NCBI GenBank assembly: GCA_026545225.1
Contig: CM048846.1
Coordinates: 91,141,270 to 91,205,269, forward strand
Reading direction: 5' to 3'
DNA from: Cornus controversa
Lineage: Eukaryota > Streptophyta > Magnoliopsida > Cornales > Cornaceae
Length of the DNA stretch: 64,000 bases
Below the pieces are notes generated by a model. The model was not told where the DNA came from and ran no database searches. It saw only the letters and a program-made list of their open reading frames with translations. This document shows, one piece after another, positions 6,304 through 39,614 of this stretch (the stretch's first letter is position 1; each line of letters begins with the position of its first letter). Position numbers and translations under genes: made by a program.

Positions 6304-6941
6304 TGATGCAGGAGCATCCGAGTCAGATGATGCTGAGCTGTCAGATGACACGTTGATGGCACTGAAATATCTTGAGTTGGCAGATCAGCGTAAAGATGGC
6401 AGGAAACCGTGACCTTGTCACTAATTAGGGTATTTTTGGATGTGATTCGGTATTTTGGCCATAACTTTGGCTACAGGTGTCAGAATCGCCTTTATGACCA
6501 CAATTCGGAAAGCTTGGTTCGGCGCGCACGTCGTGGGCACCTAGCTAAAGCTGGGTGAGTCTGTTTTCGAGGTCAAAATCCACTGTTTTCCCCTCCGAAT
6601 CCCTAATTTTAGTTATTTCTTTCCTTTTTTGGTAATATTTATTTTGTTGATTAGGAAGTGATTCTGGGCTTGATTTGGGCCAGAATTCTGGTAACTTTCT
6701 TCTTTTATTTCGTATTTTATTTTGGCAAGAATATTAGGTTTTTGCTATTTTTGGTAATGTTGACGAAGCTTAGCTATATAACCCGGCTTGTGGGTTGATT
6801 CGAAGGTACTTTTTGATTTTGAATAATAATATTGAATACCAGAGACTTTTCTCTGAGTTTTTGGGCAATTCTCGTGCTTTCTTTCTGTTTATTTTCTGTT
6901 GCCCTTAGCCTACAGAATAATCACTATTCTGTCCGGCGTCA
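6304..6941 (+). repeat. 5' LTR of the CRM-like element
   Basis: The LTR is 638 bp, begins TGATGCAGG and ends GGCGTCA. A TATA-like stretch (agctatataaccc, about 6772-6784) is followed by a likely transcription start region, as expected for the U3/R junction. It matches 11264-11901 with no difference that I can see. Confidence 0.95.
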
Positions 6942-6943
6942 GT

Positions 6944-6955
6944 TGGTATCAGAGC
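6944..6955 (+). promoter_or_regulatory. Primer binding site, tRNA-iMet type
   Basis: TGGTATCAGAGC lies 2 nt after the 5' LTR. This is the complement of the plant initiator tRNA-Met 3' end used by many plant LTR elements. Confidence 0.9.
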
Positions 6956-6992
6956 TTTCAGCATCTTCCTGGGTGAGATTTCATCAGTTTTC

Positions 6993-11372: not shown

Positions 11373-11901
11373 CCTTGTCACTAATTAGGGTATTTTTGGA
11401 TGTGATTCGGTATTTTGGCCATAACTTTGGCTACAGGTGTCAGAATCGCCTTTATGACCACAATTCGGAAAGCTTGGTTCGGCGCGCACGTCGTGGGCAC
11501 CTAGCTAAAGCTGGGTGAGTCTGTTTTCGAGGTCAAAATCCACTGTTTTCCCCTCCGAATCCCTAATTTTAGTTATTTCTTTCCTTTTTTGGTAATATTT
11601 ATTTTGTTGATTAGGAAGTGATTCTGGGCTTGATTTGGGCCAGAATTCTGGTAACTTTCTTCTTTTATTTCGTATTTTATTTTGGCAAGAATATTAGGTT
11701 TTTGCTATTTTTGGTAATGTTGACGAAGCTTAGCTATATAACCCGGCTTGTGGGTTGATTCGAAGGTACTTTTTGATTTTGAATAATAATATTGAATACC
11801 AGAGACTTTTCTCTGAGTTTTTGGGCAATTCTCGTGCTTTCTTTCTGTTTATTTTCTGTTGCCCTTAGCCTACAGAATAATCACTATTCTGTCCGGCGTC
11901 A
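11264..11901 (+). repeat. 3' LTR of the CRM-like element
   Basis: This is the second 638-bp LTR, TG...CA, followed by the right GATTC target copy. It contains the gag-pol stop codon (ending 11372) in its U3 part. No strong polypurine tract is obvious just upstream; the best candidate is the purine-richer stretch around 11230-11262. Confidence 0.95.
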
Positions 11902-11906
11902 GATTC
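11902..11906. repeat. Target-site duplication GATTC, right copy
   Basis: This is the partner of 6299-6303. It lies in codons for ...S-E-S of gene A. Confidence 0.92.
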
Positions 11907-13256
11907 TGATCCTGTGTGATTGTTTGAGGCAGTAGATGTAGATATGATCTTCTGCTTTAACAGCTTGTAGTAGTGTCCAAATGACAAGATGAACGAGCTT
12001 ACTAAGAAAATAGAGATGAGCAGAATTAATTTGCTAGCCAAGACAATCACAGTTTGAACTTTTATAAAGAAGTCCAAAATTAGATTCTTCGTTTTATGAA
12101 CAAATTTTCTGCATTTTTTACCTCGGACTCTTAAAGCTAAGGGGCTCTCTCTCCATTGTGCTAGCCTTTCGATCCAGTAATTCTCTATTTTCAACTCAAT
12201 TTTGTAGCTTTTTAAATTTTCTTGCGAATACCTTAATCTTAAGGTGGTGAACGCTCTAAATGTCGGGGCAATTGTACCTACTACCACCCCAAAAGACTGA
12301 ATCACTAGAACCACAAAGGTAGACCATCTATAACTCGATCCAACGTTGACCGGATTATAATCGTTGAACAGATTATAAGCATTGTACAGACTGATAGGGC
12401 TGGTCAGGGGTATCTTGAGATTCGCTTCTGCTAAAGTGACTGCAGCCAAAAAACAGATTGTCCCTGAAGCATAGCAGGTAACGGAACGAGCCATAACAAA
12501 CTGAGGGCTACCAGTTTCTGCCATCATCCAATATTTTTTTACATTCTCTTTCAATTTCTCAATTGTAAACTTTTCAGTTTCCTCTGATTCCTCACTCGAA
12601 ATCATTTCGTGCATATCATCATAATTCAGTTGCAGATGCTTTTTGGTGGTGGAAACCGTCAAAATTGAGAAACTCATTATTACAAGCAAAACAAGCATGA
12701 AAGACAGAGCTGCAATGTGTTCTATCATGAATAAAGAAATTATTACTTCAGTTTTTAATTGGATGCAGACATTCACAAAAATGGTGATCACAAGAATGGC
12801 CAAGGCTGTTATGTTCATGAAAATTTCTCTGTCATTCATGGTTGCTAAAGAAGGCAGAAAATTACCTATCGCTGTAGACATCAAAGAGGTGCTGCTAAGT
12901 TTTGCCAGCTGATCTATAGGGGTTGGCATATTGGTACTTAGATCCACTGGCAGCTTCGTTGCTACAGCTAATAGTGTCAGGGAAGCGGCATTGAGAGTGA
13001 AAAATTTACATGGAAACCACAGTTTTCTGTGGCGAAATCCGTGGAAGACATCAGCAGCCATTGCAAGGGAGCAGACTAGAGATGCTGCTCCAACATAGAG
13101 GCCGATCCATGGCATTGGTGATTCAAATCGATTTTCCTGTTCCTTCTTGATGATCTTCTCCGTGCAGCAGAACATACTGATGTCACTGTACAAGGACTCG
13201 TCCCCTATCCACTTCCTGTTACAGAGGTGTTCGCACATGGACAAAGGTGTACCCAT
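11902..13256 (-). pseudogene. Gene A, N-terminal part (membrane domain)
   Basis: This encodes residues 1-452 of cluster member A from ATG at 13256. A variable N-terminus (48 residues, four Cys) precedes the family core PWIGLYVGAASLVCSLAMAADVF. By eye there are about eight hydrophobic segments, at about 49-70, 82-103, 119-138, 144-166, 178-200, 254-277, about 300-328 and about 385-415. The conserved AETGSPQFVMARSVTC motif lies before the sixth. The linker ends NNHTGSES, where the retrotransposon begins. No frameshift or stop occurs before the insertion. Upstream DNA (13257-13600) matches upstream DNA of copies C, E and H. If expressed, this half would give a membrane-only protein with a few residues read from LTR antisense. 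Confidence 0.9.
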
Positions 13257-20150: not shown

Positions 20151-22430
20151 CTACTGACCAGCTATCTGTGGCCCTCCAGAACCAGTAGAATCACAGAATG
20201 AACAAGTTAAAGCCAAGGAATTCTCCTGCTTGATTAATGTACGCCACTCATCAATATATACCACTTTATTAGGATTCAGACTGGGAAGCTCACGCTGTTG
20301 AAGAATTTTCATAATCTCTTCAGTTTCACCAAGAAGTTGAGCAGCATGTCGGACACTCTCCTCCCTCTTTTCTATGGCACTGCAAAAACATTTCATAATT
20401 ATGACACGCGATAAGTTGGTGAGACAAGCACCCAATATATCCGCGGCCATAGCAGATAATTGCTCGAACATTCTCCCGTCAGTTTGGTTCTTGCCCTTTT
20501 CATGCTCAAGCAGCAGGGATTGACTTATTCTGTACATTGAATTTGCAACAATAACTTTGATGGGCCAGTTCAAAGGGCTCTCCTTTAGATTTCCATTCAT
20601 GTTTACCTTGAATTCCATGACAATACTTTTAGCTATGCCAAGAAGTCTCTCAAGAGTCTCCTTTGTGGTTTTTCCTTCAAGAGCGATTTTTCGAAGATCT
20701 TCATCTTGCCACTTGCTGAAAAGATCAACTTCTAACCACACTATCTCTGCTGCATTTCTGATTTTTTCCAAGTCAGCTTTGGAATCAATGTTTTTTTCTA
20801 CGAGGCTAACATACAAGAGGCCTTCCCTCATGCTTCTGTGCAACCGCTCCTTGGTATGATTTTCAATGTTGGGAAGTGCCATGGCGATGCTTGTTAGCGT
20901 AACCAAAGGCAGAGTCCAACAGTTAGGAGGTTCTTTAGAATTTAGAGATGAAATTTGGTTGTTGTCAAACTTCGCGACCCCCTTGAAACTGGTAGATTTT
21001 CCTAAAAGCTCTTGAAGATATTTAGGCTGTTGCTTTTTACCTATCTGAATCAAATGATATGTATCATCCCTGTTGTTCTTCATGATCTGTAGGGGCAATT
21101 CCTCCTCACCGTCAAGATACAGAACAAAACGATTTAGATCCAACTGTGAACCAAGTTGTGATTCTGATCCTGTGTGATTGTTTGAGGCATTAAATTTAGA
21201 TAGGAGCTTCCGCTTTAAGACCTTGAAGTAGTCGAAACATGACAACAACGGGCTTAGTAGAAAACTGGAAATGAGCATAACTGATTTGTTAGCTGTGACA
21301 ATCACAATCTGAACTCTAATACAAAAGTTCAGAATTAGATTCTTTGTGTTGTGAACAAGTTTTCTGCATACTAGGCCCCGGATTTGTAAAGCCAAGGGGC
21401 TCTCTCTCCACCCTACCAGGTTTTCGATCCAGTAATTCTCTATTTTCCACTCAGTTTTGTAGCTCTTGCCTCTTTTTACTGAGCACTTGTATTTTATGGC
21501 AATGAACCATCTAAATACTGGGGCAATTGTACCTACTCCCACCCCGATTGTTTGTATCACAAGAACAAACAAGATTGACCACTTATAATCCGATTTGAGA
21601 TTAAAGGGACTATATATGTACAACAAATACATCCTTATCTCCGCTTCTACTAAAATGACAGTGGTCAAAGAACATATTGCTCCTAAAGCAGAGCAGGTCA
21701 CAGATCGCGCCATCACAAATTGTGGACTACCTGTTTCTGCCATTATCCAATATTTTTTCACATAATCTTCCAGTTTTTGGACATTGACCATTCCAATTTC
21801 CTGTGATTCTTCAGTTGAAATGATTTTATGTAAGTCATCATATTTGAGTTGCAAATGTTTTTTAGTGGTTGGGACAGTCAAAGCTGAGCAACTCAATATT
21901 AGAAGCGTAACAAGCATGAAAAACATAACAATTATATGTTCTATTTTAAGAATACCATCTAATATGCCAGTGCCTAATTGGATGCAGATATTGACAGAAA
22001 TAGTGATGACGAGAATAGCCAAGGCTATCATGTTCATTAGAATATCTTTGTCATCCATAGCTCCTAAAGATGGCATAAAATTACCTATTGCTGTAGACAT
22101 CAAGATGGTGCTGGTAAGTTTCGCCAGCTCATCTATAGCGGTTGGCATGCTGGGACTTAGATCCACTGCCAGCTTTGTTGCTACAGCTAATAATGTGAGG
22201 GAAGCGGCATTGAGAGTGAAAAATTTGCATGGAAACCACAGTTTTCTGTGGTGAAACCCGAGGAAGACGTCAGCAGCCATTGCAAGGGAGCAAACTAGAG
22301 ATGCTGCTGCAACATACATACCAATCCATGGCATTGGTGCTTTGTATTGTTCTTCCTTCTGACAGGATCGGTTTATCATTTCTTCACGATAGTACTCGTG
22401 ATTGATGGCCAAATGATCGCAGAGAGACAT
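20151..22430 (-). CDS. Gene C: two-domain membrane protein, function unknown
   Basis: Intact single-exon gene, 759 residues. A 33-residue variable N-terminus precedes about eight hydrophobic segments (about 34-55, 67-88, 104-123, 129-151, 163-185, 239-262, 284-308, 366-398). The motif AETGSPQFVMARSVTC (about 231-246) lies before the sixth. A polar linker with NNHTGSES (417-424) leads to a soluble, mainly helical domain (about 429-759) opening with LDLNRFVLYLDGEEELPLQ. Conserved blocks follow: EPPNCW (500-505), TLTSIAMALPNIE, AAEIVWLEVDLFSKW (560-574), and LLGETEEIMKILQ near the C-terminus. There is no signal peptide and no catalytic signature I recognise. I recall similar sequences annotated only as uncharacterised plant proteins. 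A MULE lies 96 bp upstream of the ATG and separates the gene from its ancestral upstream DNA. The ATG was chosen because no upstream in-frame Met exists and its position relative to PWIG fits the other copies. Confidence 0.9.
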   Translation of the reverse strand: MSLCDHLAINHEYYREEMINRSCQKEEQYKAPMPWIGMYVAAASLVCSLAMAADVFLGFHHRKLWFPCKFFTLNAASLTLLAVATKLAVDLSPSMPTAIDELAKLTSTILMSTAIGNFMPSLGAMDDKDILMNMIALAILVITISVNICIQLGTGILDGILKIEHIIVMFFMLVTLLILSCSALTVPTTKKHLQLKYDDLHKIISTEESQEIGMVNVQKLEDYVKKYWIMAETGSPQFVMARSVTCSALGAICSLTTVILVEAEIRMYLLYIYSPFNLKSDYKWSILFVLVIQTIGVGVGTIAPVFRWFIAIKYKCSVKRGKSYKTEWKIENYWIENLVGWRESPLALQIRGLVCRKLVHNTKNLILNFCIRVQIVIVTANKSVMLISSFLLSPLLSCFDYFKVLKRKLLSKFNASNNHTGSESQLGSQLDLNRFVLYLDGEEELPLQIMKNNRDDTYHLIQIGKKQQPKYLQELLGKSTSFKGVAKFDNNQISSLNSKEPPNCWTLPLVTLTSIAMALPNIENHTKERLHRSMREGLLYVSLVEKNIDSKADLEKIRNAAEIVWLEVDLFSKWQDEDLRKIALEGKTTKETLERLLGIAKSIVMEFKVNMNGNLKESPLNWPIKVIVANSMYRISQSLLLEHEKGKNQTDGRMFEQLSAMAADILGACLTNLSRVIIMKCFCSAIEKREESVRHAAQLLGETEEIMKILQQRELPSLNPNKVVYIDEWRTLIKQENSLALTCSFCDSTGSGGPQIAGQ

Positions 22431-22517
22431 TGTATTTTTTCTGCTTTAATTATAACCCTTCTTTTTTTTTGGGAGAAGTCACTTGGGTAGTAGTTGTTGG
22501 TCCTGTGAATGCTACCA

Positions 22518-22526
22518 TAAATGTAT
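22518..22526. repeat. MULE target-site duplication, left
   Basis: TAAATGTAT (9 bp) lies directly outside the left terminus and is repeated at 33249-33257. Nine base pairs is the Mutator superfamily length. Confidence 0.9.
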
Positions 22527-22748
22527 GGATTAGAATCCGCTCCTGTGAGGATTCAGTCCTGTTCCAGCCGGTGTGACATATGTGGTTGTGGGTAAGCCAC
22601 ATCACTTACTAAACTTTACTAAGCCACCTGACCAAAATGGATAAAAAAATTAACTGAGGCTAGCAGTATAAACCATTTACGCCTTTATACGAATACATAT
22701 ACAAAAAGCATTTTTCCCGCCCAATTTTTTTATCATCTTCTTCAGCCA
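22527..22748 (+). repeat. MULE left terminal inverted repeat
   Basis: About 222 bp, ending inward at 'cttcagcca'. It matches the reverse complement of 32974-33248 in a series of blocks with small gaps; the best stretches are 22652-22712 and 22717-22748. Confidence 0.9.
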
Positions 22749-22870
22749 TATATATATATATATGTACACACACACACTTTAGTTAGCATCTTTATTGGCT
22801 AAAAATAGATCGTTTTCAACAAAAACGCTCAACGCAAGGATACGCGCTCAAGGCTCTCTACTCACTCTGG

Positions 22871-22911
<41 letters not shown>

Positions 22912-23738
22912 CCAAGTTGGTATCTTTGGTGATAATCATGAATGTTGTGTATATCTTTGGTGATATTATTGATTTTGAATCTGACATTGGTGCTTATTTA
23001 TTTATATGGGATGGGGTACGAGCTGAGTGGTTGTGGGATTGGTCATTTATACAATATGGGTTTCTTGATGTTATGTTTGGTGTTTTTATACTTTGGTTCA
23101 GTCAATTTACCAGGTGGATTTATTTTTAATGATGTCGATTTCGAAATCTATGTTTTTTTCGTGAACTTACCTTTCACCAGGTGATTCTACCCTCTATGTA
23201 CCCCTTCTCTGTAGCTCCCTCATCCAAGTGAAAGACCATAAATGAGAAAGCCAATAAGTTGTTAACTGTCATGATAAAGACAATAAGTTGTTAACTTTCA
23301 TGATAAAAGTGTACGACTAAAAACTCAACAGATGGTATTAATCTTTGAAATAAGTCTAAAAGCATTCCAGTAGCCTTTCACTCATTGACTAAACTAATTA
23401 TGAAAACTTAGAAGAATCTGATGCCAATAAAATAGAAGTAGAATTTTTATTAGGCAGGTAATTAATTGCAAAAGGTGTCAACTGAAGGCTTTATCACACT
23501 TTCTGAGAAAGCCACGTCAATGAAATCACCACTATTGTTACATTTGCACACTAGCCTCTTGAGTGTTATATCAAGTTAATTTTAATATTTCTTTTCTAAA
23601 GTTATGACTGTTATTTTATTTGGTATAAAACGCTTAGAAACAAACTCACCATTTCTTTCTTGGTTCTTCAATAATTAAGGGAACAAATAAAATACAAACC
23701 ATAGCTAGAGCAAAAATAATAGGCTGAAAACTTTAAAT

Positions 23739-24692
23739 GAATGTTACATCCTAACTAAAACATAACATATAGGAAACATGAATTCTATGTTGCATCCCAA
23801 TCTTAAGGTAACCGATTGCCCAACTTAAGATAACAAGTTGGAAATCTAAAATGTATGGTACATCCTAACTTATGGTAATAGGCAGGAAACTTAAAATGTA
23901 TGGTACATCCCAACTTAAGGTAACAGATTGGAAACATAAAATGTATGGTACATCCCAACTTAAAGTAACAGATTGTCCAAATTAAGCTAACAGTTTGGAA
24001 ACCTAAAATGTAAGGTACATCCCAACTTAAGGTAATATATTGAAAACCTAAAATGTATGATACATCCCAACTTAAGGTAACAGATTGTCCAACTTAAGAT
24101 AACAAGTTGGAAACCTAAAATGTATGGTTACATCCCAACTTAAGGTAATAGATTGGAAACCTAAAATGTATGATACATCTCAACTTAAGGTAACAGGTTG
24201 CCCAACTTAAGGTAACAGGTTGGAAACCTAAAATGTATGATACATCCCAACTTAAGGTAACAGGTTTGAAACCTAAGATGTATGGTACATCCCAACATAA
24301 GGTAACAGATTGCCCAACTTAAAATAATTGGTTGGAAACCTAAAATGTATGGTACATCCCAACTTAAGGTAATAGATAGGAAACCTAAAATGTATGATAC
24401 ATCCCAACCTAAGGTAACAGGCTGCCCAACTTAAGGTAATAGGTTGAAAACCTAAAATATATGGTACATCCCAACTTAAGGTAACAGATTGCCCAACTTA
24501 AGATAACAGGTTGAAAACTTAAAATGTATGATACATCCCAACTTAAGGTAATAGGTAGGAAACCTAAAATGTATGATATATTCCAACCTAAGGTAACAGG
24601 CTGCCCAACTTAAGGTAATAGGTTAGAAACCTAAAATGTTTGGTACATCTAACAGATTGCCCAACTTAAAATAACAAGTTAGAAACCTAAAA
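23739..24692 (+). repeat. Minisatellite inside the MULE (45/73-bp units)
   Basis: About 950 bp of tandem units made from two modules: 'cccaacttaaggtaacag' followed by 'ttggaaa', and 'cctaaaatgtatggtacat'. Short units are about 45 bp. Longer ones of about 73 bp hold the first module twice. The array ends about 350 bp before the transposase ATG and is confined to the MULE. Repeats near MULE ends can bind transposase or drive transcription in some families; here that role is only an inference. It is not a CRISPR array, because there are no unique spacers. Confidence 0.92.
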
Positions 24693-25047
24693 TTTGTGCA
24701 TTTATGGCTTATCTTACACTAATAAAATATTTACATTTAGAGTTTCGTATGCTATAGACTTGGATGCAGTTTATTTCTGACTAATTATGTGAGATGACAC
24801 ATCGTTTCTGTTGTTAATTTTCCTTCATAATTGGTAGGGCATGTTTGGAGGCAGAGTGTGCAAACATGGAGTGTTTGTCTTGAGAAGTTACATAGGACTA
24901 TGTAAATGCATTGCTAGGACATGTTTGGGACAAAGCGTGCTAGGGCATGTTTGATGTTATACTTAGATTAACTGATAAAATTCAAGTCAATTATGATTTA
25001 TTTAGCTGAATTGTGTTCTATATATGTTTGTTATTGAAGTTATTCAA

Positions 25048-28000
25048 ATGGAAGTTGAATTAATTAACATTGAAGACACAACAAATGCTTCAATTCTTGA
25101 GCCTGAGCAAATAAAATGGAAACCAAGGTTTTCGATGGAGTTTGATACTGAGCAAGACGCATATGATTTTTACAATGCATATGGGGGTAGAATCGGATTC
25201 AGTATTCGAAGAGAATATTTTAATAAAAGTCGTGTTACTGGAAAAATTACATCCAGATTGTTTGTTTGTTCCAAGGAGGGTATTAGGGTGAAGGACAAAA
25301 GGGATATATCAACAAGAAATCCTAGGGCTGAAACACGAACTGGCTGCGGTGCACTCATGCATATTAAATATAACAACGATAAGGGAAAGTACTTCGTTTC
25401 TAAATTTGTGGAAACTCACAACCATCCTTTGATAATTGAGGAGTGCACTCACATGATGCCTTCGCAGCGAAGAATTACTGCAATTCAAGCCATTGATGTG
25501 GAGTTTGCTTCCGATTCAGGAATTGCGGTTCGTAATGCATATGAGTTAATGGGAAAACAAGCTGGTGGGAAACAATCTATTGGCTTCACTAAGCTGGATC
25601 AACAAAATTATATAAGGACTCGAAGACAAAATGAGCTTCAATTTGGAGATAAAAGTTGGCTGATGAATTATTTTTAGACTCAGGCCTGCGAAGATCCTTC
25701 ATTCTTCTATGCTGTGCAATTAGATAATGAAGAAATGATAACTAATATATTTTGGGCAGATTCGAGAATGATAGTTGATTATGGCCATTTTGGAGATGTC
25801 ATAACTTTTGATACAACATACAAGCTTGTCCACGGCAATTGGCCTTTTGCATTGTTTCTCGATCTTAATCATCACCGGGAGACTGTTGTATTTGGGGCAG
25901 CCTTCATGTATGACGAGACTTCTGATTCTTTTGCTTGGTTATTTGATACATTCCTGAATGCGATGTCTAGTAAAGCGCCAAAGACGATTTTGACTGACCA
26001 AGATGCAGCAATGGCAAAGGCATTAACGCAGGTTATGCCCGGGACGAAACATCATCTTTGTACGTGGCACTAATGCAAAATGCACAAAAGCATCTTGGCC
26101 CATTTTTTGAAGGTTACGAAGACATCAAAAATGTGATATCCAAATTCATGTCTTGCATTGAGGAAGAAGATGATTTTTTAGTCAAATGGGAAGAAATGTT
26201 AACATTATATGGTGTTGTTGATAACACATGGCTGGACAACTTGTTTGGTTTGAGACATAGATGGGCTAAGGCATTTGTTAAAAATGTGTGGTCCGCGGGA
26301 ATGCGTAGCACACAGTTGAGTGAAAGCTTCAATGCTCGATTGAAGGAGTACTTGACGAGGCAACTAACACTTCCAGATTTCTTCAATCACTTTGAAAGGC
26401 TGTTATCCGACAAGCGTTACAAAGAGTATGAAGCCGAGTATGGTTTGCTCTATAAGCTACCTAGACTCCAAAGAGATTGTGAAATTTTAGTTCAAGCCGG
26501 AAAGACTTACACAAGGAGGATATTTGAGATTTTTCAGGAAGAATTCTTAGTAGCTTGTGTCAGCGAGAGAATCATTAGCTATAGTGCCATGGATAGTAAT
26601 GGACACTGGGTTTATAAAGTTGGCATTCATGAAAATGGGGTGCAACGATGCGTGACAAGGACAGATGATGACCAATTATCTTGTTCATGTGGAAAATTTG
26701 AAATGGAGGGTATTATGTGCAGTCACACTTTGAAAGTTCTTAAAGAGGTGATGAACATCAATGAATTGCCTTCTCAATATATATTACCAAGGTGGACTAG
26801 AAATGCTAGACATGGTAACTTGGATGAAATTCTTGCTGGTGAAGTTATGGTGGATCCTAAACTTGAAGTCAGGCGACGACATAGGATCCTTTGTCGTATT
26901 CTAATTGAAATATCTTCCATTGCATCGGAAACCAATGAAGGATACAATGATTTATTACTAAAGGCGATGGAATGGAAAAAATCTGCACAAGGAAGTTCTA
27001 CTCAAAGTTCAGCTGGGAAAGAAGCAAGTTTACCACCTACATCCACTGGAATAAATGCCAAGGGCTTGAAGACTAAAGATACATCTAAAGGACGAAGGCG
27101 TAGGATAAAATCTGATTTGGAGAAATCTGTGGAGAAGAAGAAAAAGGCTATAAAACGAAAACTTAAGGTATTTACCAAAATTTCATCGTTTAAGTTAGGA
27201 TGTAACATACATTTCAAGCTTCTATGTGTTACTTTTAAGTGGATATGTAACATACATTTCATATTATCATAATATCATTGTATACTATTATATATGGATT
27301 TTCTTGCATTGTGAAACTGTAAAATCTTTGAACATTTTTCTTCTGTTCTAGAAATCCAAGGACACTGGTGTTTCTGAAGTGGCAGGTAGTAGTGGTAGGA
27401 GGACAAGCCCCTCTTATATTTTAGTCAATGTGAGTATTGTTGTCACTAAATGAGATCTAATAACTTGTTTGGATAACATCTACATAGTAATTTGTTTATT
27501 TTGTTTACAATATAATTCTAACCTAACAGAGGTACATTATTTGTTTTTTGAAGGGTGCTGAAATTCCATCTGAATTTCTCAATGATCATTGTTATGTGCC
27601 ACCACCTGTAATGCACAAAAGACAGGGTTGCGAACCACCTTATAGTTCCGGTATTCATTTTGGTCAACCCATGACTCCTTCAAACCAGGTAAGTGAGGTG
27701 ATACAATTTTATTTTGGTAATGGAATATAAATTATGGCTTTCATTGCGTAATCTCTAATGAACACTTAAATTTTTGTAGACTAATATTGGTGATACGTGT
27801 ATGTTTTCATCAGAATTATTCAATACTCCTTCTTCCTATGACGAATCATGCGCGGCTGATATGGCAAGTGAATAATATCTACTTTTTCACCTTAATATTT
27901 TATTATGTTATTATATTTTAAGCTTTAATTGTGATTTAAATTGACTTTGGGCATGTTTTCTCAAGTTCCTCTTTAATTTGTATAAGATTTAATAGTAACT

Positions 28001-28222
28001 ACTCTCATATGCTACATGCCTTTTTATTTTGAATGCACATTAAATGTTTGTTTTAATACATTCAGATTTCAATAACTCTGTTTTGAAATGCAGGCCTCAG
28101 GTAACAATTGCTACAACATCAATCTTGATCTTAGGCTCAGTCATTCAACTTTCACGCCAACGTCCCATATGCCAATCCCGGAGATTAACCGTAGTTCACA
28201 ACAACAACTGTTTAAAACTTGA
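25048..28222 (+). pseudogene. FAR1/FRS-type MULE transposase gene, damaged
   Basis: Five exons by splice signals and frame: 25048-27167, 27352-27429, 27554-27688, 27780-27863 and 28094-28222. All introns are phase 0; the fourth uses a GC donor (ATG|GCAAGT). The product has a FAR1 zinc-binding DNA domain (FDTEQDAYDFYNAYGGRIGFSIRR ... CSKEG ... TGCGALM ... ETHNHPL). A MULE transposase core follows, with ITFDTTY and TDQDAAMAKAL carrying the first two acidic residues and HHLCTWH after them. A SWIM zinc finger (CSCGKFEMEGIMCSH) and a basic Lys/Arg-rich region close exon 1. Defects: an in-frame TAG at 25675-25677, and loss of one base near 26071 after CTWH. Otherwise codons are well kept, so loss of function is fairly recent. 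ATG 25048 is preferred over the in-frame ATG at 25024, which is weakly supported. TIRs and TSD show this is a transposase, not a resident FRS regulator. Confidence 0.88.
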
Positions 28223-28560
28223 GTTGGAAGGGCTTATGTATTTTTTACATGTCTAGTTGGTATATAACTAGCAATTACATTTCTCAGCTGTATGTTAAGT
28301 TGATTATCCTTGAATGTACATGACTCAAATGGACAAATGATGAAAACAACTCTTTAAAATGATCACAATCTAACTCATGATGAGGCAACTATATGTCCCC
28401 TGGTTGATCATAACCCTAAGATGACAATCTGATGTTATGCTATTGCTAAAGTTGCCCAGCAAATCTGCACCTACCCTGAAACACTCCATTCCAACCCAGA
28501 CAATATCAGAACACTTGAGCTAAATTTCATAGCCAAAGGTACCAGATAGCTTAACTTGGT
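28223..28560. other. MULE interior after the transposase, no gene seen
   Basis: AT-rich sequence between the transposase stop and the SINE insertion. It presumably includes the 3' untranslated region of the transposase. A small minus-strand open frame here (28471-28755) has no motif and spans the SINE. Confidence 0.5.
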
Positions 28561-28574
28561 TGATTCAATGCCAT

Positions 28575-28650
28575 AGAAAAAATAAAAGAAAATAAAAAGG
28601 GCTAGCCCTGGGTACAAGCCTCCTGCCATTGTGGGGAGGCTGTGTGCTTG
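28575..28650 (-). mobile_element. Short SINE insertion with 14-bp target duplication
   Basis: A 76-bp insert is flanked by tgattcaatgccat at 28561-28574 and 28651-28664. On the minus strand it has a GC-rich head (cagcctccccacaatgg, then aggcttgtacccagggctag) and a T/A-rich tail, resembling the 3' part of a plant tRNA-derived SINE of the Au type. It is truncated at its 5' end. It inserted after the host sequence was already part of the MULE, or was captured with it. Confidence 0.65.
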
Positions 28651-29780
28651 TGATTCAATGCCATGTAACTTTGCAAAATTTAAATGTTTATGATAGTTAT
28701 GGTTCTGCCAAGGTAAATATGCAAAAATGCACATGTTCACGACAAAAACCAACACAACAGTTTAACAATAATGCTAAATGAACTAGCATGCTTATTATGG
28801 TAAACAGAGTAATAATAGAGTATTCACAAGTTTCAAGGCTCAATATTATTAGCAAAATAACTTCTGTTGCTTTCACTTTGCAGGTAACTCTGTTGACATT
28901 GCCTAATTAATTCTGATGGAAACAAATACCATAGATAGCAAGCTTATCTTTTTTTTCTGGTTTCCTTCTGAGTTTTCACTTTCCTTATTTCATTTTATAA
29001 GATCGTATAATCTAAACTGAGCATATAACAATCATGATATTTTTGTTTTTTGGGGCAAGTAAGATTATATTAACAAGAAGCTAGATACACAATATATACA
29101 AGGGGAATACCCCAGGACTTTACAAGAGAGAAATTCTAAGACAATTATATGCCAAGATCAAAGATTACTTGTATAACCCAATATCTTTCTGCAGTCAAAA
29201 TCAAGCAGCATCGTATGAAATGTATTTGACCGGAATGCAGCTCAACATAGAAGGTAAAAGGATGGCAGAAAAGCAAGTCCATGGTAGCCAAACAAGGTTT
29301 GATGGGACTAATGAACTAAGCACAGAAAAGAAAGCAAAAAAAAAATAGAACCAGCTCCAAATTGTTCTATAGCATTTGCAATCACCTCAGGCAGCGTATT
29401 GCAAAGCAACATTCGACTCCACAATGCTGTCAGCCCAACAGAGAGTAACACAAGTACTCCAAAATTAAGTACAAGGGGAAACGCAGGGTGGCACACAAAG
29501 GAAACAATTCCAATAAGGAGTGGGAGACGCAGGGGGAGAGTTCAAAAGAGTATTATGTTTCATTTCACAAGATTATAGGAAGAATAATTGATACGAGGAT
29601 TGGCACAGTCTGCCATGCAGAGCCAAGTTTTATGGAAGTTGTAGGTGATGCCACATCATATAATCCAACTAAATTTTTTTTAAAATATCAGTAATTCAGG
29701 TAGGCTCTGCATAACAATAAAGTTGGATGTCCCCTTGCCATTTAAACATATAATTTAACAAGAAAATGGGCATTTCATAC

Positions 29781-29840
29781 CTCAATCCCATTCGCCTCGA
29801 AGTCCTCTTGTAGAACAGATTGCAAGGCAGAAATTGTAGT
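29781..29840 (-). pseudogene. Captured proteasome alpha-6 exon (penultimate)
   Basis: On the minus strand 20 codons read TTISALQSVLQEDFEANGIE. They are bounded by a good acceptor (...ttgtacag) and donor (gtatga). The sequence closely matches the segment before the last exon junction of plant 20S proteasome subunit alpha type-6 (PAA1 as I remember it: TAISALQSVLQEDFKATEIE). It lies within the MULE, 1.1 kb from the final exon of the same gene, but in the opposite orientation. No earlier exons were found. Confidence 0.85.
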
Positions 29841-30021
29841 CTGTACAATGGAAAGAATTCGGTGATATTAAAAATTCAAAAATATATATGTATGTGTGTG
29901 TTGGTATTCACAAAGTATAAGACAATCACAGATCCGTTGTTGACATCCCAAGACAATCTCAAGGAAAAACACAAAAATAATTGAGGGATAACATAATTTT
30001 TATTCTGTTTATACATCTTTT

Positions 30022-30198
30022 CAGAAAGGGAGGAGGACTAAGCCCGTTGGTATGCCATGGAAGACAATTGTGAGGACAAAAGAAGCATTGATGCAATCAT
30101 TGAAAAAGCATAAAAACAACAAAAAGTGCGTTTTGAAAACAAAAACAAATAATGAAACTTTTGGCATAAAATGTATACATATATTTTTATTTTACTTT
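30022..30198 (+). other. Possible captured exon of unknown origin
   Basis: After an acceptor-like 'tacatcttttcag' there is an open stretch reading KGRRTKPVGMPWKTIVRTKE, continuing with a Lys-rich run to a stop at 30207. The first 40 or so codons look protein-like (basic, balanced) and the rest is AT-rich noise. I cannot name a source. It may be chance. Confidence 0.25.
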
Positions 30199-30959
30199 TT
30201 ATTCTAGAACAATCAAGTATCACTCTTCAATCTAAAGAGAACACAACTCAATTGCTGGGAATGGGCTACACATCTCTTTTGAATTTATCTACCCAAAACA
30301 TGATGTAATTTTAGTTTAACCAGCCCAATTAAGAGGAACACTACAACTGCTCCACTTAACTGTGCAAATCCCAATTCATCTCCTGGTAACATTCCTCTTG
30401 TAACAGAATTGAGGTTGAACTAAATACAGATGCCAATTTTATCTGTTCATTTTCATTTCTATAGGTAATTTAAATCCTATAAGTTTGTCAATAGCGTTGT
30501 ACTACAAGTGCTGACATGTCATTTGAAAGGAAGGGGTGGGGTTAAATTCTTGTACATAAATCTTAAATTTCAAAATCTCCATTGGTACTTGGCAGAACTC
30601 AGCAGCTGTTGTACTATTCTATTAGTTGCAATCTTTTAGTCAATAGGTATAAAAGAGGATCTAGAGGAAGTGTATATGTGGTAGTCCTCCACTTGTTCAT
30701 GCTTATCTGTTCCATTAATTCAATCTTTTCGGTCAGAGTTGTGGCTGAGTTTGCCAGAACTTTACACGTATGTACATACGCGCGTGCACATATATATATG
30801 ACATAGAACATTATGGGTTGACAATTATGTTCATCCGATTTAATAGATTTTAATTTTGATTCTGCAGACTGGTCTGTCCAAATCTGGGAGAATGCTTGTT
30901 GAATTCATTTGTATGTGGCATGCATTTATTTATTTATTCTCTTTTGTTACTGTTAACAG

Positions 30960-31052
30960 GTTGGAGTTGTGAGGAAGGAGAATCCTGTGTTTAGAGTGTT
31001 GTCCATGGAGGAGATTGAGAAACATTTGATTGCCATAAGTGAGTGTGATTAA
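30960..31052 (+). pseudogene. Captured proteasome alpha-6 last exon
   Basis: After the acceptor 'ttactgttaacag' there are 30 codons and a stop: VGVVRKENPVFRVLSMEEIE, then KHLIAISECD. This closely matches the C-terminus of plant 20S proteasome alpha type-6 (VGVVRAENPEFRALTTEEIE, then EHLTAISERD in PAA1 as I remember it). The exon start coincides with the junction following the exon at 29781-29840, but here it is on the plus strand. The functional gene is not in this window. Confidence 0.88.
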
Positions 31053-32078
31053 GTACTGGTCAGAATCTGAAAATGCATTCAAGTAGTCATTCAGATTTTA
31101 TAAATTGCAAGACTCGCTTTTTCATTCGACTAATCATTAGACCTATTATTAAATCAGATTGCCTGAGTTTTAATTGTAACAGTGGACTTTGATTTTGAAC
31201 TACAATTGTAATTGTAATTGTCTAAAGCATTTGTTGGACTTTGACTTTCTCTCAAAGAAATAAAGAAAATAAATGGACATCGAATGCATGAAAAGATAAA
31301 AATGAAAAGAGTGTAAGTAGGATAAATAATAAGTACAAACCTACAATTGCGGACACAGGCACAATGTGTGAGACAATGCTACTAAAATTAGATTACTTAG
31401 AAAATGTGTAACCTAGAGTTATGAATCCAAGAGGAAAAACAATAGACTTACAAGTTGTATTGAGTGGTAGGGCTTGAGTGTCAGTACATAACATCAACGC
31501 CTTCTTGTGAACAGGTTTAGTTTTGCCAGTAATTAGAATTTTATGAGGGTCACTGCAACACTGAACCATAAAATGAGGTTTCACAATTACAAGAACAGGT
31601 ATATGTAGAAAAATCTCAAGAATTTATCTACTTTTTGAAAGCCTCAGAGGCTATAACCAGCAAAGAGAATGGGAAAATTGCACCTTAACAACAATTTTAA
31701 CACCAAGGAATTATGTGAATGAGGTTTTATGGCAAAATCATGTTTGAATTTGAGGGCAACCACCTGACCTTACAGAAGAAGTAAAGGTCAGGTATCTGAC
31801 CTCATCCACCCTTCCAAGGCTGAATACTGGATAATGTTAATCCTTATAGTAGGTCGCCTCCTGATGAATATATTCATATCTTTATAATAAAATTTTCTTT
31901 CACACATAGGCAAAACTCACTGCTATACTGAATTGATCCTTTCTGTTTCTTTCTTTTGGTAAGTAAAATTAAATGTTTGAGTTGAATTTTTTTTTTTTTT
32001 GAATGGTATGTTTGAGTTGATCTTGTTCAACAAAACTCAAGCCAGATGACATAATTCAATTATTCCACTTAAATTTAT

Positions 32079-32133
<55 letters not shown>

Positions 32134-32270
32134 CCTAATCTTACATCCCTCGCTAAACCTAAATAAAACCCTTAAAATTGAAAAAGGGTGAATTGCTAAA
32201 ACTGAATAAAACCCCTAAAATTGAAAAAAAATCATTTAATCTGATTAAACAAAAATAAATAAAATCAACA

Positions 32271-32301
<31 letters not shown>

Positions 32302-32973
32302 AACAGAAAGATATACAAATACAAAGGGAAAAATAAAAATTAAGAAATTTATACACACAAATACAAATACGAGAGAAAAATATTACCTTAAAAACAATAG
32401 AAATTCGGAACCTAGCATCAATCAAAATCGTTGATGACTGGAAAAAAACCCTCTTAACCCAAGAAACAATTGTTAGGGTATTGTGAGTTGAAATCGATGA
32501 ACCCTAGACTTAGAGATAGAGAGAGAGAGAGGGTGTACCTAACCAGACTTGGTGCTGCAACGAGGTGAACTACAGGTGCTTCTACAGATACTTCTACAAG
32601 CGATGCTCTGGATATGGAGGATTTACTGAGTCGGCAAAATGAACTGCTTGATCTACTGGTGCTAACTTCGATTATGCCACGGCTTGATCGTGAAGGCTCT
32701 CCTCACTCACTAACAGCATCTCTATCTCTAGCTGGATGTGGTTCTCGATCATATATGAAGATCAGAATCAGTACAAAAAGGATAAAATTCAAGAAATTAG
32801 AAATTGGCTGAGAGAATCGTGTGAGAGGGAGGAGAGAGAAAGAGAGGGGTGGAACTAAGAAAGGTTTCAATCAAAAAAGAAAGAGGCTTGAAGAAAGAAG
32901 GCTTGAAATCTTCTTCGGGTATGTGGATCTGCTGTGCTTTCACTGGAGTCCGGGGGTCTGCTCTGTTTATGAT
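31053..32973. other. MULE interior, right part, no gene recognised
   Basis: Contains a (TA)n tract at 32080-32129 and a smaller one near 32274-32300, and a repeated pair of phrases 'taaaacccctaaaattgaaaaa' at about 32165-32225. An open frame at 32614-32811 (MEDLLSRQNELLDLLVLTSI...) follows a (ga)n tract and could be the start of another captured transcript, but no family is recognised. Confidence 0.5.
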
Positions 32974-33248
32974 TGGCTGAAGAGGACGATCGAAAAATTG
33001 GGCGGGATTGAGATGGGTTTAGTTTGGGCGGGATGGAGAGTAAAATCAGATATAGGTATATACTGCTTTGTATATGTATTCGTATAATAAGTAAATGGTT
33101 TATACTGCTAGCCTTCAGTTCTTTTTTTAATTGGAGGTAAATACACAAAAAGGTAAGTGATATTTACCACATATGTATGCAATAAGTCCCTCGATTTGAG
33201 CGCACCGGCTGCGACTGGTTGGTTCCAAACAGGAGAGGATTTTAATCC
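32974..33248 (-). repeat. MULE right terminal inverted repeat
   Basis: About 275 bp, reverse complement of 22527-22748 with extra bases in gaps. The outer end on the minus strand reads GGATTAAAATCCTCTCCTGT; the inner end is 'tggctgaagagga'. Confidence 0.9.
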
Positions 33249-33257
33249 TAAATGTAT
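33249..33257. repeat. MULE target-site duplication, right
   Basis: TAAATGTAT, a perfect match to 22518-22526, followed directly by the cluster upstream flank (gttccactaatagattgtcaag). Confidence 0.9.
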
Positions 33258-33829
33258 ATATATATGTTCCACTAATAGATTGTCAAGTCCTAACATAAGA
33301 AATTATGTTGATTGAACAATTCTATCAATCTTCTAGAAGCTCAGGAGGATGTGGTTGGCTTTACATTTCTCAAATTATTTTAGAGTTTTTTAATTGTGAA
33401 TATTATCCTAAGAAATGGTACACTTAGAGTTTACTTGGAACAATAAAAAATGTTTTCAATAGCTTGCACGAAAACTTCTAAAAATTATATCGTGCATCCA
33501 TCATATTTACTTGTTCATCCATCATGGTGGGACCAATCACGTGGATGGGTGAGAAAATACTTTTCCAGTTTTCCTTCTCCAACCAATCAAGTGAACGGGT
33601 CAAGACTCAAGACTCAACTAATTTTTTTCAAACTATTTGATTTGACAACTCAAATAAAATATTTTAATTGCGAAGCTTCTCAGGAGGACTTGTACAAAGT
33701 GTAGGAGTGTTTAGATTTCCCAGAAAGTTTCAACACGTTATTAGACATTGTTCCACCAAGTTTTCCTAGACCGTTATCATATCCCCAATTCCAGTCACTA
33801 GCGTAGACCTAATAAAAAAGAGAGAGAAA

Positions 33830-34125
33830 TGTTGGAAGTTTTAATATTAATAAAAATTATTTTATAATATCATGCACTATCCTTCTAAAATTAGATAACA
33901 ATGTAATTATCAATACTTATTGAGGCGGGGTTATATTTATCAATTTATCGTCTAATTGACTATATAATATAGCATTGAACCGTCACTTTCTAATTTTATT
34001 TGGTAAAATTTAATTATAATGTAATATTCTTAAATTATTTCAAAATCTTCCATTTACCATTGTGTAATATTCTTAAATTAATAAGAGCCACCGTCTAGTT
34101 TTTTTGTTACAAGTAAAAACATGAC
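33830..34125 (+). mobile_element. Diverged LTR-like remnant
   Basis: Starts TGTTGGAAG and follows the LTR at 57635 through several phrases (ctaaaattagat, ttatcaat, ggggttata, tttatttggta). Its end resembles 19425-19515. It is an old, incomplete fossil. Confidence 0.4.
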
Positions 34126-34140
34126 TATATTTTTTAGAGT

Positions 34141-34312
34141 AATGCTACATGTCATGAAAATATTTCATGAATTTTTATCTTGAATGATGTGGCAATTAAA
34201 TGGTGAGTTAGTATTGGTGGGATTCCCCATACACAGAATCTCAATGGTATTATCACCTGTCACATCATTCATGATGGTAATTCATGATAAAATTTCATGA
34301 CGTTTAGCATTT
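34141..34312. mobile_element. MITE family 1, copy a
   Basis: Inverted ends: aatgctacatgtcatgaaaa at the left, and at the right the reverse complement of aaatgctaaacgtcatgaaa. The inner parts are also palindromic (ttgaatgatgtgg / cacatcattca). It is about 172 bp, with further copies at 39444, 40751 and 44922. Confidence 0.75.
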
Positions 34313-36419
34313 CCCTATTTTTTAACAAGCATGTTCTTGGATCCATAAATAGTTTGAAAATTCTCCGATCTCCAACCTTTCTCTCCTGGCCGATTCAAAA
34401 AAAAAAATTTCTTTTTCCCACGAAAGAAAATTGGATTGATGAAAAAGAGAACAAGGGTTACACAAGGCCCAAAGAGAGGGTTAAGAAGCCAGAAGGTATA
34501 CCAATTCTAAGGGATTTAAATGCCAAGAAAGACCAAAAGAAATAAAGCCGAAAGAAATGAATGGTGAATCTCAAGGACCTGGTAGCGACCTAATATTTGC
34601 TGGAGATCGAAAGGCGACGATTACTAACAGTGTCAAATCTTATAGAAAATTGAATGGTAGTCTTCTCTTGCTGTTAGATTTCCATTTTTTTTGGAATCTC
34701 ATTGATTGTCGTACAAAATGAGTATTTATAATTGAAAAATGATAAGGAATCCGACTCTTTTAGGCCGAGTAAAATCCGAGCACTCCACTCTCTGCCTAGT
34801 GTATTGCTTCTTAAATAGAAATTCTTTTTCTCTCTGTACTAAATGCTCATCATTTGGTAAGTTAAAAAAGGTCATTTAAGTTTCACAAAATTTCCAATGG
34901 GTGCCATAAATTATAAAGGAATGTATTTAGAAACGTTTTTTGGCATAGCTAAAAATTCAACACTGAACACAGTGTATAACCCATATATCAAACGTTCAAG
35001 TGCATAATTTTTCTACATATAATACAAAAGTAATTAAATACATCCTTAGTTGTGTTCTCTGATATCAAGTATGAATGAAATAAAAATATCCTTAGTTGTG
35101 TTCTCTGATATCAAGTATGAATGAAATAAAAATTCAAAAAATATTTTAAGTAAATTTCTTTTTTAAAAAAAATAATATATACAGTATTTAAAACATGCTA
35201 AATTTCATGCCCTTATCTCTTATTCAACTTTTCTTCTCTCTTCCTCTCTCTCTTTTTCTTTCTGTAACAAAATAAATAAATGAAAATTAGAAATTATTAG
35301 TTATTTGCCACTAAAGAAATGGTTCAAACCACCATATTGACAAATCTTTATATTTTTAATTTATTATTTAATGATAGTTTTCTATTAGTAATTTTTAATC
35401 TTCATATTTAAAAAAAAAAAATTAAAAAAAATAAGCAAGAAATGATTAGAGGACAAAGTTATTATTATATTTTATTAGATGTTATAGTAGTTAAATCCAA
35501 TTAGAGAGAGCGCATGTAACAAAAATGCAGACTTCAAGTGAAAAAAAAGCATGGTTCTCTCGTAATGGTTAATTAATGACATAAATGGTAAATCTTAAGA
35601 AATGTAGAGGCTTAATTTTTGGATTCAAAGATAGAATTTATTATGAAAGAGAGAAAAATCTTTTTTTTATTGAGGCAAAACACGTGCCTTACCAATACAC
35701 CATTCCAACTCTACTCGACACAAAACGTTCGGACTCCTTTGGTCAATCTCATGCTTTTAACTTTGTATCCCTGTGATGATGTGGTGCTAAAGCAAATCTA
35801 TGCAATAGTCGCTACTGCTGGATAGATCATATTGGCATATACAGTGAAGGATGGAGCTCAACCAGCCCTGTCGTCTCCTAATTGATGAATAGGTGAGCCA
35901 TATATAGTGGCTGATAATTTATATACTTGTACTTAAGCGGACTAATATTCATATCAACAGCTATCTAATCAACTGTGGACTACCCATTTGCTGTGAGAAA
36001 TTTGTCAAAACAAATTCTTGGAACAACTACTCAAAGCACGCTTCTGGTAATTGTATATTGATATACCATACCTATCCTTCCCAAAAAACTCAAGAATTGA
36101 GATTAAATGGAGATAAAATTAGGTTTTGGTTAAGATTATCAGGAGAAAAAATGACTTGCTTAGAATGACAAATATTCGAGTTGCATACAAGCTACAACAG
36201 TTGCTATATTAGACTGCAGCACATTCAAATGATACTAAATGAAAATCCTGCATATGAATATTATATACCTATATTATAACACAGCATATACCTGTGTTAA
36301 TTATAGGCCTTGCTCATTTGAAAGCTGAGAATTCATGAAACATACCAGTGTGAAATCATACAGAAGTACATACCATACAATTATAGCACTATCTGCTAGT
36401 ATTTTCTCCAGCATACCTC

Positions 36420-37026: not shown

Positions 37027-39331
37027 TCAGAAGATGATGTCACGCCACTCATCAATGTAAGCCAATTTATCAGGGTTCATACTAGGAAGCTCGTGCTCTT
37101 GAAGGATATTCAAGATCTCTTCAGTTTCGCCAAGAAGTTGAGCAGCATGCAGGACACTTTTCTCCCTCTTTTCTATGCCACAGTAGAAGCATTTCATCGT
37201 CATGACACGCGGTAAGTTGGTGAGACAAGCACCCAATATATCAGCGATCATAATAGATAATTGCTCGAATAGCGTCACATCAGTTTGGACATTGCTGCCT
37301 TCGTGGTCTTGCAACACAGTTTGGCTGATTCTGTACATTGAATTTGCAGCAATAACCTTGATGGGCCAATTCAGAGGGTTCTCCTTCGAATCACCGTTGA
37401 CGTTTTCCTTGAACTCAATGACACTGTTTTTGGCTATGTCACGAAGTTTCTCAAGAGTCTTCGTGGAGTTGTTTCCTTTAGGAGTGATTTTCTGGAGATC
37501 TTCATCTAACCACTTCTGGAAAACATGAACTCCTAACCACACTATGTCTGCTGCATTTCTGATATTTAGCATATCACTATGTCTGCTGCATTTCTGATAT
37601 TTAGCATATCACTTCTGGCATTCAAGAATTTTTCTACAAGGTTGGCATACAAGAGGCCTTCACTCACACTTTGAAGCAACCGCTTCACCTTGTGATTTTC
37701 AATGTTTGGAAGTGCAATGGCTATACTTGTAAGAGTAACCACAGGAAGAGACCAACAATTAGGAGGTTCTTCAAAATTTAGAGAAGGAACTTGGTTACTG
37801 TCAAACCTTGCCACCCCCTTGAAAGCAACAGATTTTTCTAAAAGCGCGTTGAAATATTTTGGCTGCTGCTTTTTACCCATGTGAAAAAAATGTTCAGTAG
37901 CAACGCTGTTGTTCTTCACACTCTGTAAGGGCAGTTCCTCCTCACCTTCAAGATACAAAATATAATGGCTGAGATCCAGCTCTGTGCCATGCACCGATTC
38001 TGATCCTGTGTGATTGCTTGAGGAGGTATTTTTAGATATGAGCTTCTGCTTTAACTCCTTGTACAAGTTCCAAAAAGACAAGAATGGACTTATTAAGACA
38101 AGAGAGATTAGCATAATTAATTTGCTAACCCAGACAATCAGAATTTGAACTCCTATACAGAAGTCCAGAATTAGATTCTTTGTGTTATGAACAAGTACTT
38201 CGCTTCTTTGGCCCCTTTCCAGCCTACTAGCCTTTCGATCCAATAATTTTCTGTTTTCAACTCAGTTTTGTAGCTCTTGACTCTTTTCTCTAATAGCCTT
38301 AATCTTATGGTGTTGAACAATCTAAATGTCGGGGCAATTGTACCTACTACCACGCCAAAAGACTGAATCACAAGAATTACAAAGGTTGACCACCTATAAC
38401 TCGATCCAACGTTGCGTGGATTAATATAGGTGGAACCGCCGATGTATATAAATATCCTGATGTGGGCTTCTGCTAAAGTGAATGCAACCAAGAAACAAAT
38501 TGCCCCTGAAGCATAGCAGGTAACTGAACGAGCCATAACAAACTGAGGGCTACCAGATTTTGCCATCATCCAATATCTTTTTACATTTAATTTAAAATTT
38601 TCAATTGTGAACTTTTCGGTTTCCTCTGATTCTTCACTCGAAATTTGTTTGTGCATGTTATCATATTTGAGTTGAAGAGTCTTTTTGGTGGTAGAAATCG
38701 TCAAAGCTGAGAAACTCAACACTAGAAGAAGAATAAACATGAAAGAGAGAACTGCGATGTGTTCTATACTGAAAAACGTAAATATTGCTCGAGTACTTAA
38801 TTGGATGCAGACATTCACAATAATGGTGATTACGAGAATAGCCAAGGCTGTCATGTTCATTAGAATATCTTTGTCATCCATAGCTCCTAGAGATGGCATA
38901 AAATTACCTATTGCTGTAGACATCAAGGCAGTGCTGCTAAGTTTCACCAGCTGATCTATTGGACTTGGCATCTCGGTGCTCAGATCCACTGGCAGCTTCA
39001 TTGCTACAGCTAATAAGGTCAGGGAAGCGGCATTCAGAGTGAAAAAATTGCATGGAAACCACAGTTTTCTGTGGCGAAACCCATGGAAAACGTCAGCAGC
39101 CATTGCAATGGAGCAGACAAGAGATGCTACTGCAACATAGAGGCCGATCCATGGTATTGGTTCTTCAACTTTATGCTTTACAGCCTTCACTATCTTCTCA
39201 TTTTTATAATCGAAGCAGCAGGTATAGCTGATATGAAAGTAGAAATATAGGAGTTCCCTGCATTGCGTAGAATTGTTGTCATCTATTATGTAATAGCGAT
39301 AATCCTCGCAGGTGGCCGAGTATCCCTGCAT
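37027..39331 (-). pseudogene. Pseudogene E, young twin of gene H
   Basis: Nearly complete copy of the membrane-protein gene, very close to H. ATG is placed at 39331 (MQGYSATCEDYRYY), which aligns with the H start (MHEPSATCENYRYY); a longer frame reaching 39448 runs into a TA microsatellite and is not credible. Two frame-breaking changes are visible against H. The first is a 25-bp deletion near 38208, in the region encoding ERPLDLQVRGQ after the seventh membrane segment. The second is a 35-bp tandem duplication at about 37537-37606, inside the NIRNAADIVW block. All eight membrane segments, the linker (SNHTGSESVHG) and the C-terminal domain are otherwise preserved. A truncated membrane-only product of about 385 residues is conceivable. 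Confidence 0.9.
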
Positions 39332-39411
39332 TGCATAGAATTTGTCGCCGGATGAAAGGCAAGAGCTTGGGTTGTAGACTTGTAATTGTTGGTGCTGTGA
39401 ATGCTGCGTAC

Positions 39412-39442
<31 letters not shown>

Positions 39443-39443
39443 G

Positions 39444-39614
39444 AGCAATGTTACACGTTAAGAAAATATTTCATGAATTTTTATCTTGAATGATGTGGTA
39501 ATTAAATGGTGAGTTAGTATTGGTGGGATTCCCCCATACACGGAATGTATTATCACTTGCCACATCATTCATGAAGGCAATTCATGATAAAATTTCATGA
39601 CGTTTAGCATCTCC
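39444..39614. mobile_element. MITE family 1, copy b
   Basis: Left end gagcaatgttacacgt, right end (reverse complement) gagatgctaaacgtcatgaa. It lies within the TA/AC microsatellite upstream of E and is absent from the matching position upstream of H. Confidence 0.75.

Follow-up and report, generated by a model that had tools for sequence, protein, structure and literature searches.

A proteasome alpha-6 gene fragment with an inverted middle, carried by a CACTA element and by a Mutator-like element in Cornus controversa

Features of the locus

The window, that is the whole stretch of DNA analysed here, comprises 64,000 nucleotides of Cornus controversa (contig CM048846.1, positions 91,141,270 to 91,205,269). 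It contains a Mutator-like element (MULE), inside which lie two exons of a gene for the 20S proteasome subunit alpha-6 (PAA):

Positions 22527-33248, plus strand: MULE of 10,722 bp, with terminal inverted repeats (TIRs), a 9-bp target site duplication (TSD) and transposase domains.
Positions 25024-28222, plus strand: MULE transposase gene with FAR1, MULE and SWIM domains; the window copy has an in-frame stop and a frame break.
Positions 29781-29840, minus strand: PAA exon A, the penultimate exon, 60 nt, residues 197-216, reading TTISALQSVLQEDFEANGIE.
Positions 30960-31052, plus strand: PAA exon B, the last exon with the stop, residues 217-246, reading VGVVRKENPVFRVLSMEEIEKHLIAISECD.

The initial annotation had described two consecutive PAA exons on opposite strands, about 1.1 kb apart and with splice sites kept, and this description holds for the window copy. 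The exons are separated by 1,119 bp. On the minus strand exon A is flanked by AG at 29841-29842 and GT at 29779-29780, and AG directly precedes exon B. Joined together, they align without gaps to the spinach PAA chain 7qve_B (246 residues) over residues 197-246 (E 4.8e-15). The similarity to PAA lies beyond chance: a tblastn search of the whole window with spinach PAA scored 41.6 and 37.4 bits at the two exons and 20.0 bits at the next-best match, against a top score of 25.8 bits when the window was resampled 40 times with a first-order Markov model.

The surrounding element has terminal inverted repeats and a TSD in the 8-11 bp range expected of MULEs, the 9 bp TAAATGTAT at 22518-22526 and 33249-33257. 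Similarity between the inverted ends is interrupted (22641-22705 against 33131-33067, 88%). The domains of a MULE transposase are spread over three separate open reading frames (ORFs), with Pfam matches to FAR1 (9.6e-28), MULE (1.2e-25) and SWIM (3.3e-06). These ORFs reach 25024-27272, and the exons on to 28222 were assigned by eye. Jittery transposases are FAR1-like. Ten ORFs, out of 72 with a length of 38 aa or more, were compared with Pfam, and none scored above a curated cut-off.

The insertion site can be read from paralogous upstream regions of the window. In three of the four compared (near 13.35, 39.43 and 61.44 kb) the flanks of the MULE are present on both sides with no MULE between them; in the fourth, near 51.7 kb, the right-flank match is absent. 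These regions differ from the MULE site by an AT-rich stretch. The ORF at 20151-22430, a member of a tandem gene family, has its start codon 96 bp from the insertion point, which lies upstream of it.

The MULE also contains a minisatellite at 23713-24693 with units of 45, 67 and 112 bp. A unit recurs, inverted, at 27188-27259, and a sister MULE on C9 has about 30 extra 45-bp units after its transposase. These are possibly transposase-binding repeats.

Source of the captured fragment

The host assembly searched comprises 771.7 Mb in 61 contigs (denoted C1, C2 and so on). Exon matches identified three PAA genes, at C1:92486533-92494729, C1:95867661-95875101 and C7:58496515-58501316. The load of the element matches the gene at C1:95867661-95875101 through introns and 3′ flank at approximately 91%, whereas the other two genes share only short blocks with it (up to 244 columns, 74-85%). 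We therefore take this gene as the source. An alignment that included the introns had been proposed as a means of recognising capture from genomic DNA and of finding its breakpoints; it delivers both, since the match through the introns supports capture from genomic DNA and the breakpoints are defined as follows:

Positions 29443-30466, minus strand: inverted PAA piece, from source C1:95873445-95874494; 90.7% identity over 1,057 columns, gaps counted.
Positions 30462-31185, plus strand: forward PAA piece, from source C1:95874509-95875234; 90.65% identity over 738 columns, gaps counted.
Positions 30462-30466, no strand: inversion junction, a 5-bp microhomology TAGGT where the two source alignments overlap.

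Besides exon B, the forward piece holds intron sequence and roughly 130 bp of the 3′ flank. Among aligned bases alone, the window differs from the source at 58 of 1,012 positions in the inverted piece and 44 of 712 in the forward piece. In the source gene both exons lie on its plus strand, at C1:95874097-95874156 and 95875012-95875104.

By BLAST, the inner inversion junction was found at five further places in the assembly: C9:17.83M, C4:29.01M, C2:61.81M, C6:57.89M and C9:51.19M. This count rests on a genome search in which the best candidates were scored, the six copies being those among the matches listed. The inner junction and the right capture limit, 95875234, are identical in all six. 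The left capture limit, 95873098, is common to three, and the remaining three are without the left piece. At C9:17.83M and C4:29.01M the order reads source 95873098-95873448 (plus), 95874503-95873445 (inverted) and 95874509-95875234 (plus), and the copy at C2:61.81M retains approximately 90 bp of the left piece. Just the 23 last bases of the inverted piece are left before the junction in the C6 and C9:51.19M copies; exon A is thus lost there.

The three pieces tile a single 2.14-kb stretch of the source, C1:95873098-95875234, which runs from within one intron through exon A, the following intron and exon B into the 3′ flank. The inverted middle of about 1,060 bp is bounded by ACCTA (95873445) and TAGGT (95874509), which are inverted repeats of each other. 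Across the joints some 5 bp are lost and 4-5 bp doubled, with ACCT kept at both. In the C9:17.83M copy some other sequence, about 865 bp in length, is inserted at the left joint; most of it recurs at C1:116.31M and C3:10.35M. Taken together, the tiling and the common junction and limits point to a single event that was later amplified. Opposite orientation had been thought to require either a second rearrangement or two capture events. The rearrangement is indeed there, an inversion now placed to within a few bases; two captures are rejected, since the load tiles one source stretch.

The PAA pieces of the six copies, which lie on four contigs (C2 twice, C4, C6, C9 twice), are 0-6% apart; the window belongs to C2, and its junction is at C2:91171731-91171735. 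A single origin is also supported by base changes. All six have the exon B changes T>M and R>C. In the inverted piece the source alone deviates at 31 scored sites (four copies), in the forward piece at 28 (five copies, without that on C6, which equals the C9:51.19M copy there). Some of these source-only differences may have arisen in the source gene.

Placing the strand switch by A/T skew was also tried and rejected. The change point fell at 30157, also in two of three wider stretches, and at 30436 in the third; the strength of the skew was matched by 2 of 500 Markov nulls and by 7 of 171 background stretches (two of them with the same sign). With the true joint at 30462-30466, these estimates are 26 to 305 bp off.

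The CACTA carrier

The copy at C2:61.81M is a complete CACTA element of 11,686 bp (C2:61807929-61819614), with CACTA...TAGTG termini (CACTACAAGAA...TTCTTGTAGTG) and a 3-bp TSD, TAT/TAT. Subterminal repeats occur in its first 450 bp, GTCACTAATA eight times and ATTAGTGACG seven times; in a control stretch from the middle of the element no 10-mer occurs more than twice, and one occurs twice. The PAA pieces sit at 7719-9606 of the 11,686 bp, between the CACTA ends as in a Pack-CACTA. MULE ends and a MULE transposase were looked for in this element and neither was detected. A TNP2-type transposase was not found either, and there was no Pfam match in five listed ORFs of at least 100 aa (longest 172 aa), which were read from two stretches such that an ORF across their joint would be missed. 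The element is nonautonomous. A genome profile for PF02992 scored 150 places.

This complete CACTA is just one of the three copies outside MULEs. In the stretches examined, the C9:17.83M copy shows just a CACTA-like 3′ terminus, TTATTGTAGTG, and the C4:29.01M copy neither CACTA nor MULE ends. Inside the window MULE, CACTA sequence surrounds the fragment:

Positions 28328-32886, plus strand: CACTA-derived segment inside the MULE, truncated at both ends.
Positions 28993-29451, plus strand: second dispersed fragment, adjoining the PAA piece, with 95% identity to C2:100205979-100206436.

The segment at 28328-32886 is made up of four pieces, collinear with positions 3393-11386 of the C2 CACTA apart from deletions. 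The CACTA part ends at CACTA position 11386, 300 bp before the CACTA terminus, both in the window MULE and in that on C9, and three MULE relatives have different sequence left of 32881. In the C6 MULE copy the PAA fragment likewise lies within CACTA-derived sequence. The exons had been regarded as captured by the MULE. This claim is not supported, since in the window, C9 and C6 copies the fragment is embedded in CACTA-derived sequence, unlike a fragment acquired directly as in a Pack-MULE, and it is also present in a complete CACTA in which no MULE part was detected.

Two smaller observations concern this CACTA sequence. At 28561-28664 in the window there is a 76-bp insertion between 14-bp direct repeats, TGATTCAATGCCAT, which is SINE-like by eye. 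Upstream of the load in the C9 MULE, at C9:51192984, a CACTA 3′ end is followed by TAT and then by CACTA internal sequence, so the CACTA content of that MULE is itself rearranged, apparently by insertion of one CACTA into another.

Sister copies of the MULE

The MULE on C9 (C9:51177241-51196142, 18,902 bp) has the TSD CACCACTGT and a single 758-aa open frame holding FAR1, MULE and SWIM domains. That on C6 starts at C6:57878208 and has the TSD CTCTTTATG. Only 5 differences separate the two in 11,116 bases compared, covering the right 11.1 kb of the 18.9-kb element, and their likeness ends within one base of the TIR end. Near-identity combined with distinct TSDs indicates that the load has moved recently.

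Counting the window, six places in the assembly span at least 714 of the 723 positions of a MULE left-end query. At C1:27481836-27497940 stands another MULE of this family that has both its ends; it is absent among the listed places matching the CACTA or PAA load and is a possible load-free relative.

Origin of the inverted fragment

We consider it highly probable that a CACTA element captured one contiguous stretch of the PAA 3′ end, the middle of which became inverted, and that a truncated piece of this CACTA later came to lie in a spreading MULE. Such a history would begin with a CACTA DNA transposon taking up 2.14 kb from C1:95873098-95875234. A block of approximately 1,060 bp with exon A would then have flipped in the acquired copy, probably inside the CACTA rather than just before uptake. 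The joints at ACCTA/TAGGT, the loss of about 5 bp and the insert of about 865 bp would point to repair by end-joining or template switching. The flipped copy would have spread as CACTA load until a truncated CACTA piece became part of a FAR1-type MULE, either through insertion of a CACTA whose ends were then lost or through capture of CACTA DNA by the MULE. Transposition of the MULE would have brought the load to the window site and, recently, to C6 and C9.

That the PAA fragment travelled in a CACTA first, and only later within CACTA sequence in a MULE, is the most likely order of events. FastTree trees of the copies are star-like, with supports of 0.17 to 0.96, and this order therefore rests on structure, namely the truncated CACTA in the MULE and the lack of any detected MULE part in the C2 CACTA. 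The reverse order, in which a MULE captured the exons in a Pack-MULE event and CACTA copies obtained the load from it, would fit the position of the fragment between MULE ends with TSDs in three copies, and gene capture by MULEs is known (PMC2528002, PMC8903248, PMC3310237). However, the C2 CACTA holds a larger part of the load, arranged alike, and the CACTA part of the window and C9 MULEs breaks off short of the CACTA end. A CACTA removing cargo from a MULE is not expected to leave CACTA sequence behind in it. We therefore regard the reverse order as very unlikely.

Somewhat less improbable, albeit still unlikely, is that the PAA stretch was inverted as a rearranged chromosomal pseudogene before a CACTA took it up. 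Because the inversion junction is in all six copies, they do not tell whether capture or inversion came first. Against a prior pseudogene, the junction was found at six places only among the best candidates scored, of which three are MULEs and two more show a CACTA terminus on one side or both. Independent capture of each exon has hardly any claim on the data: opposite strands would fit it, but the pieces overlap by 4-5 bp, lack about 5 bp and keep the original order save for the inverted middle. It is equally far-fetched to see an assembly artefact at 29.8-31.1 kb. The inverted junction recurs at five further places in the assembly, on four contigs in all, with PAA pieces up to 6% apart, which argues against a local misassembly.

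Fate of the fragment

Seven codons differ between the exons of the source and the window, and six of these differences replace the amino acid; from these changes, the window exons look unselected. In the C9:17.83M copy both the acceptor and the donor of exon A are altered, and in the C4 copy the acceptor of exon B. The remaining copies retain those splice sites that could be read; an exact-string search for exon A in the C2 CACTA gave no match. In view of the splice-site losses elsewhere and the replaced codons, the splice sites kept in the window are not evidence of function.

The element matches 22 of 40 source 21-nt windows exactly in exon A, 26 of 73 in exon B and 35 of 113 in the 3′ flank, and the load has 9 and 0 exact 21-mers in common with the other two PAA genes. 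By its anatomy, with exons on opposite strands, a transcript from either element end would be antisense to one exon. Small-RNA effects of the load on PAA are thus possible by sequence, although any such effect would be partial, the other two genes being nearly without common 21-mers. Silencing through a hairpin RNA was considered as well and rejected: comparing 21501-34500 with its own minus strand (E up to 1e-3) revealed no inverted repeat between the PAA pieces.

That the load is functional, its antisense transcripts and small RNAs tuning the source PAA gene, appears improbable. The exact 21-nt matches would permit it, and gene fragments borne by transposable elements have been proposed as siRNA sources (PMC2773423, PMC8903248). 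Against this stand the replaced codons, the splice sites lost in two of the six copies and the partial reach of any effect. There is likewise only a small chance that the whole represents a relay between superfamilies in which a fragment, captured and flipped in a nonautonomous CACTA, went on to a MULE family whose transposase frame is open, is still spreading and, through transcripts antisense to one PAA exon from either MULE end, could feed small-RNA control.

Comparison with known elements

Transposons commonly capture genes in plants, and there are good descriptions of such capture both for CACTA elements and for MULEs (PMC1947982, PMC2528002, PMC3310237, PMC8903248); it is the relay and the inversion that are unusual here, and they are well resolved. 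Soybean Tgm-Express1 (PMC1947982) and grapevine Cactavine-5 (PMC2528002) are CACTAs carrying host exons together with introns, as here, and the PPR gene fragment of Cactavine-5 is oriented opposite to the transposase. In contrast to both, here an internal inversion of known position sets the exons of a single gene opposite each other, and a second superfamily carries the load as well.

Pack-MULEs (PMC3310237, PMC9168764, PMC8903248) resemble the window element in their common MULE ends, 9-bp TSD and internal gene fragment. They differ in that the present fragment lies within CACTA sequence. Moreover, Pack-MULEs are described as nonautonomous, whereas the present family, with a transposase that is broken in the window copy, includes the C9 copy with its predicted 758-aa open frame. 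The grapevine Jittery-like MULEs of PMC2528002 carry cargo downstream of the transposase in either orientation. The cargo is downstream here too, but theirs is ULP1 and here it is the PAA 3′ end in CACTA sequence. Short microhomology is also common to our junction and the Pack-TIR gap-filling model (median 2 bp at breakpoints), which is based on animal elements (PMC8277862); here the microhomology is 5 bp and lies at an inversion within the load.

Among the papers searched, none brought a proteasome together with both Mutator-like elements and Pack-MULEs, and none dealt with a transposon-captured gene fragment of a proteasome subunit alpha. Nor did the matches listed on captured fragments in opposite orientation and on antisense small RNA include a gene whose exons had come to lie on different strands, which is a weak negative. 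Viral contigs scanned with PAA and the MULE domain yielded no confirmed relative. How DNA transposons acquire gene pieces is not settled, and a review (PMC13317346) allows that an undiscovered mechanism may exist. In this genome, relay and single flip alike can be traced almost base by base, and the order of events is testable because the source, the three pieces, both joints, a complete CACTA and recent MULE copies are present in one assembly. The transposon that carries a gene fragment need not be its captor, which is a caution for catalogues of Pack-MULEs.

Surroundings of the element

The tandem family next to which the MULE inserted occupies 5284-6351, 11865-13256, 20151-22430, 37027-39448, 49424-51745 and 59060-61348 of the window. 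Its proteins, of up to approximately 770 aa, are 59-94% identical where aligned, and six ORFs tested gave no Pfam match. One gene copy is interrupted by a Ty3-type LTR retrotransposon (6303-11902) with a 1,459-aa polyprotein, whose two 640-bp repeats are 100% identical.
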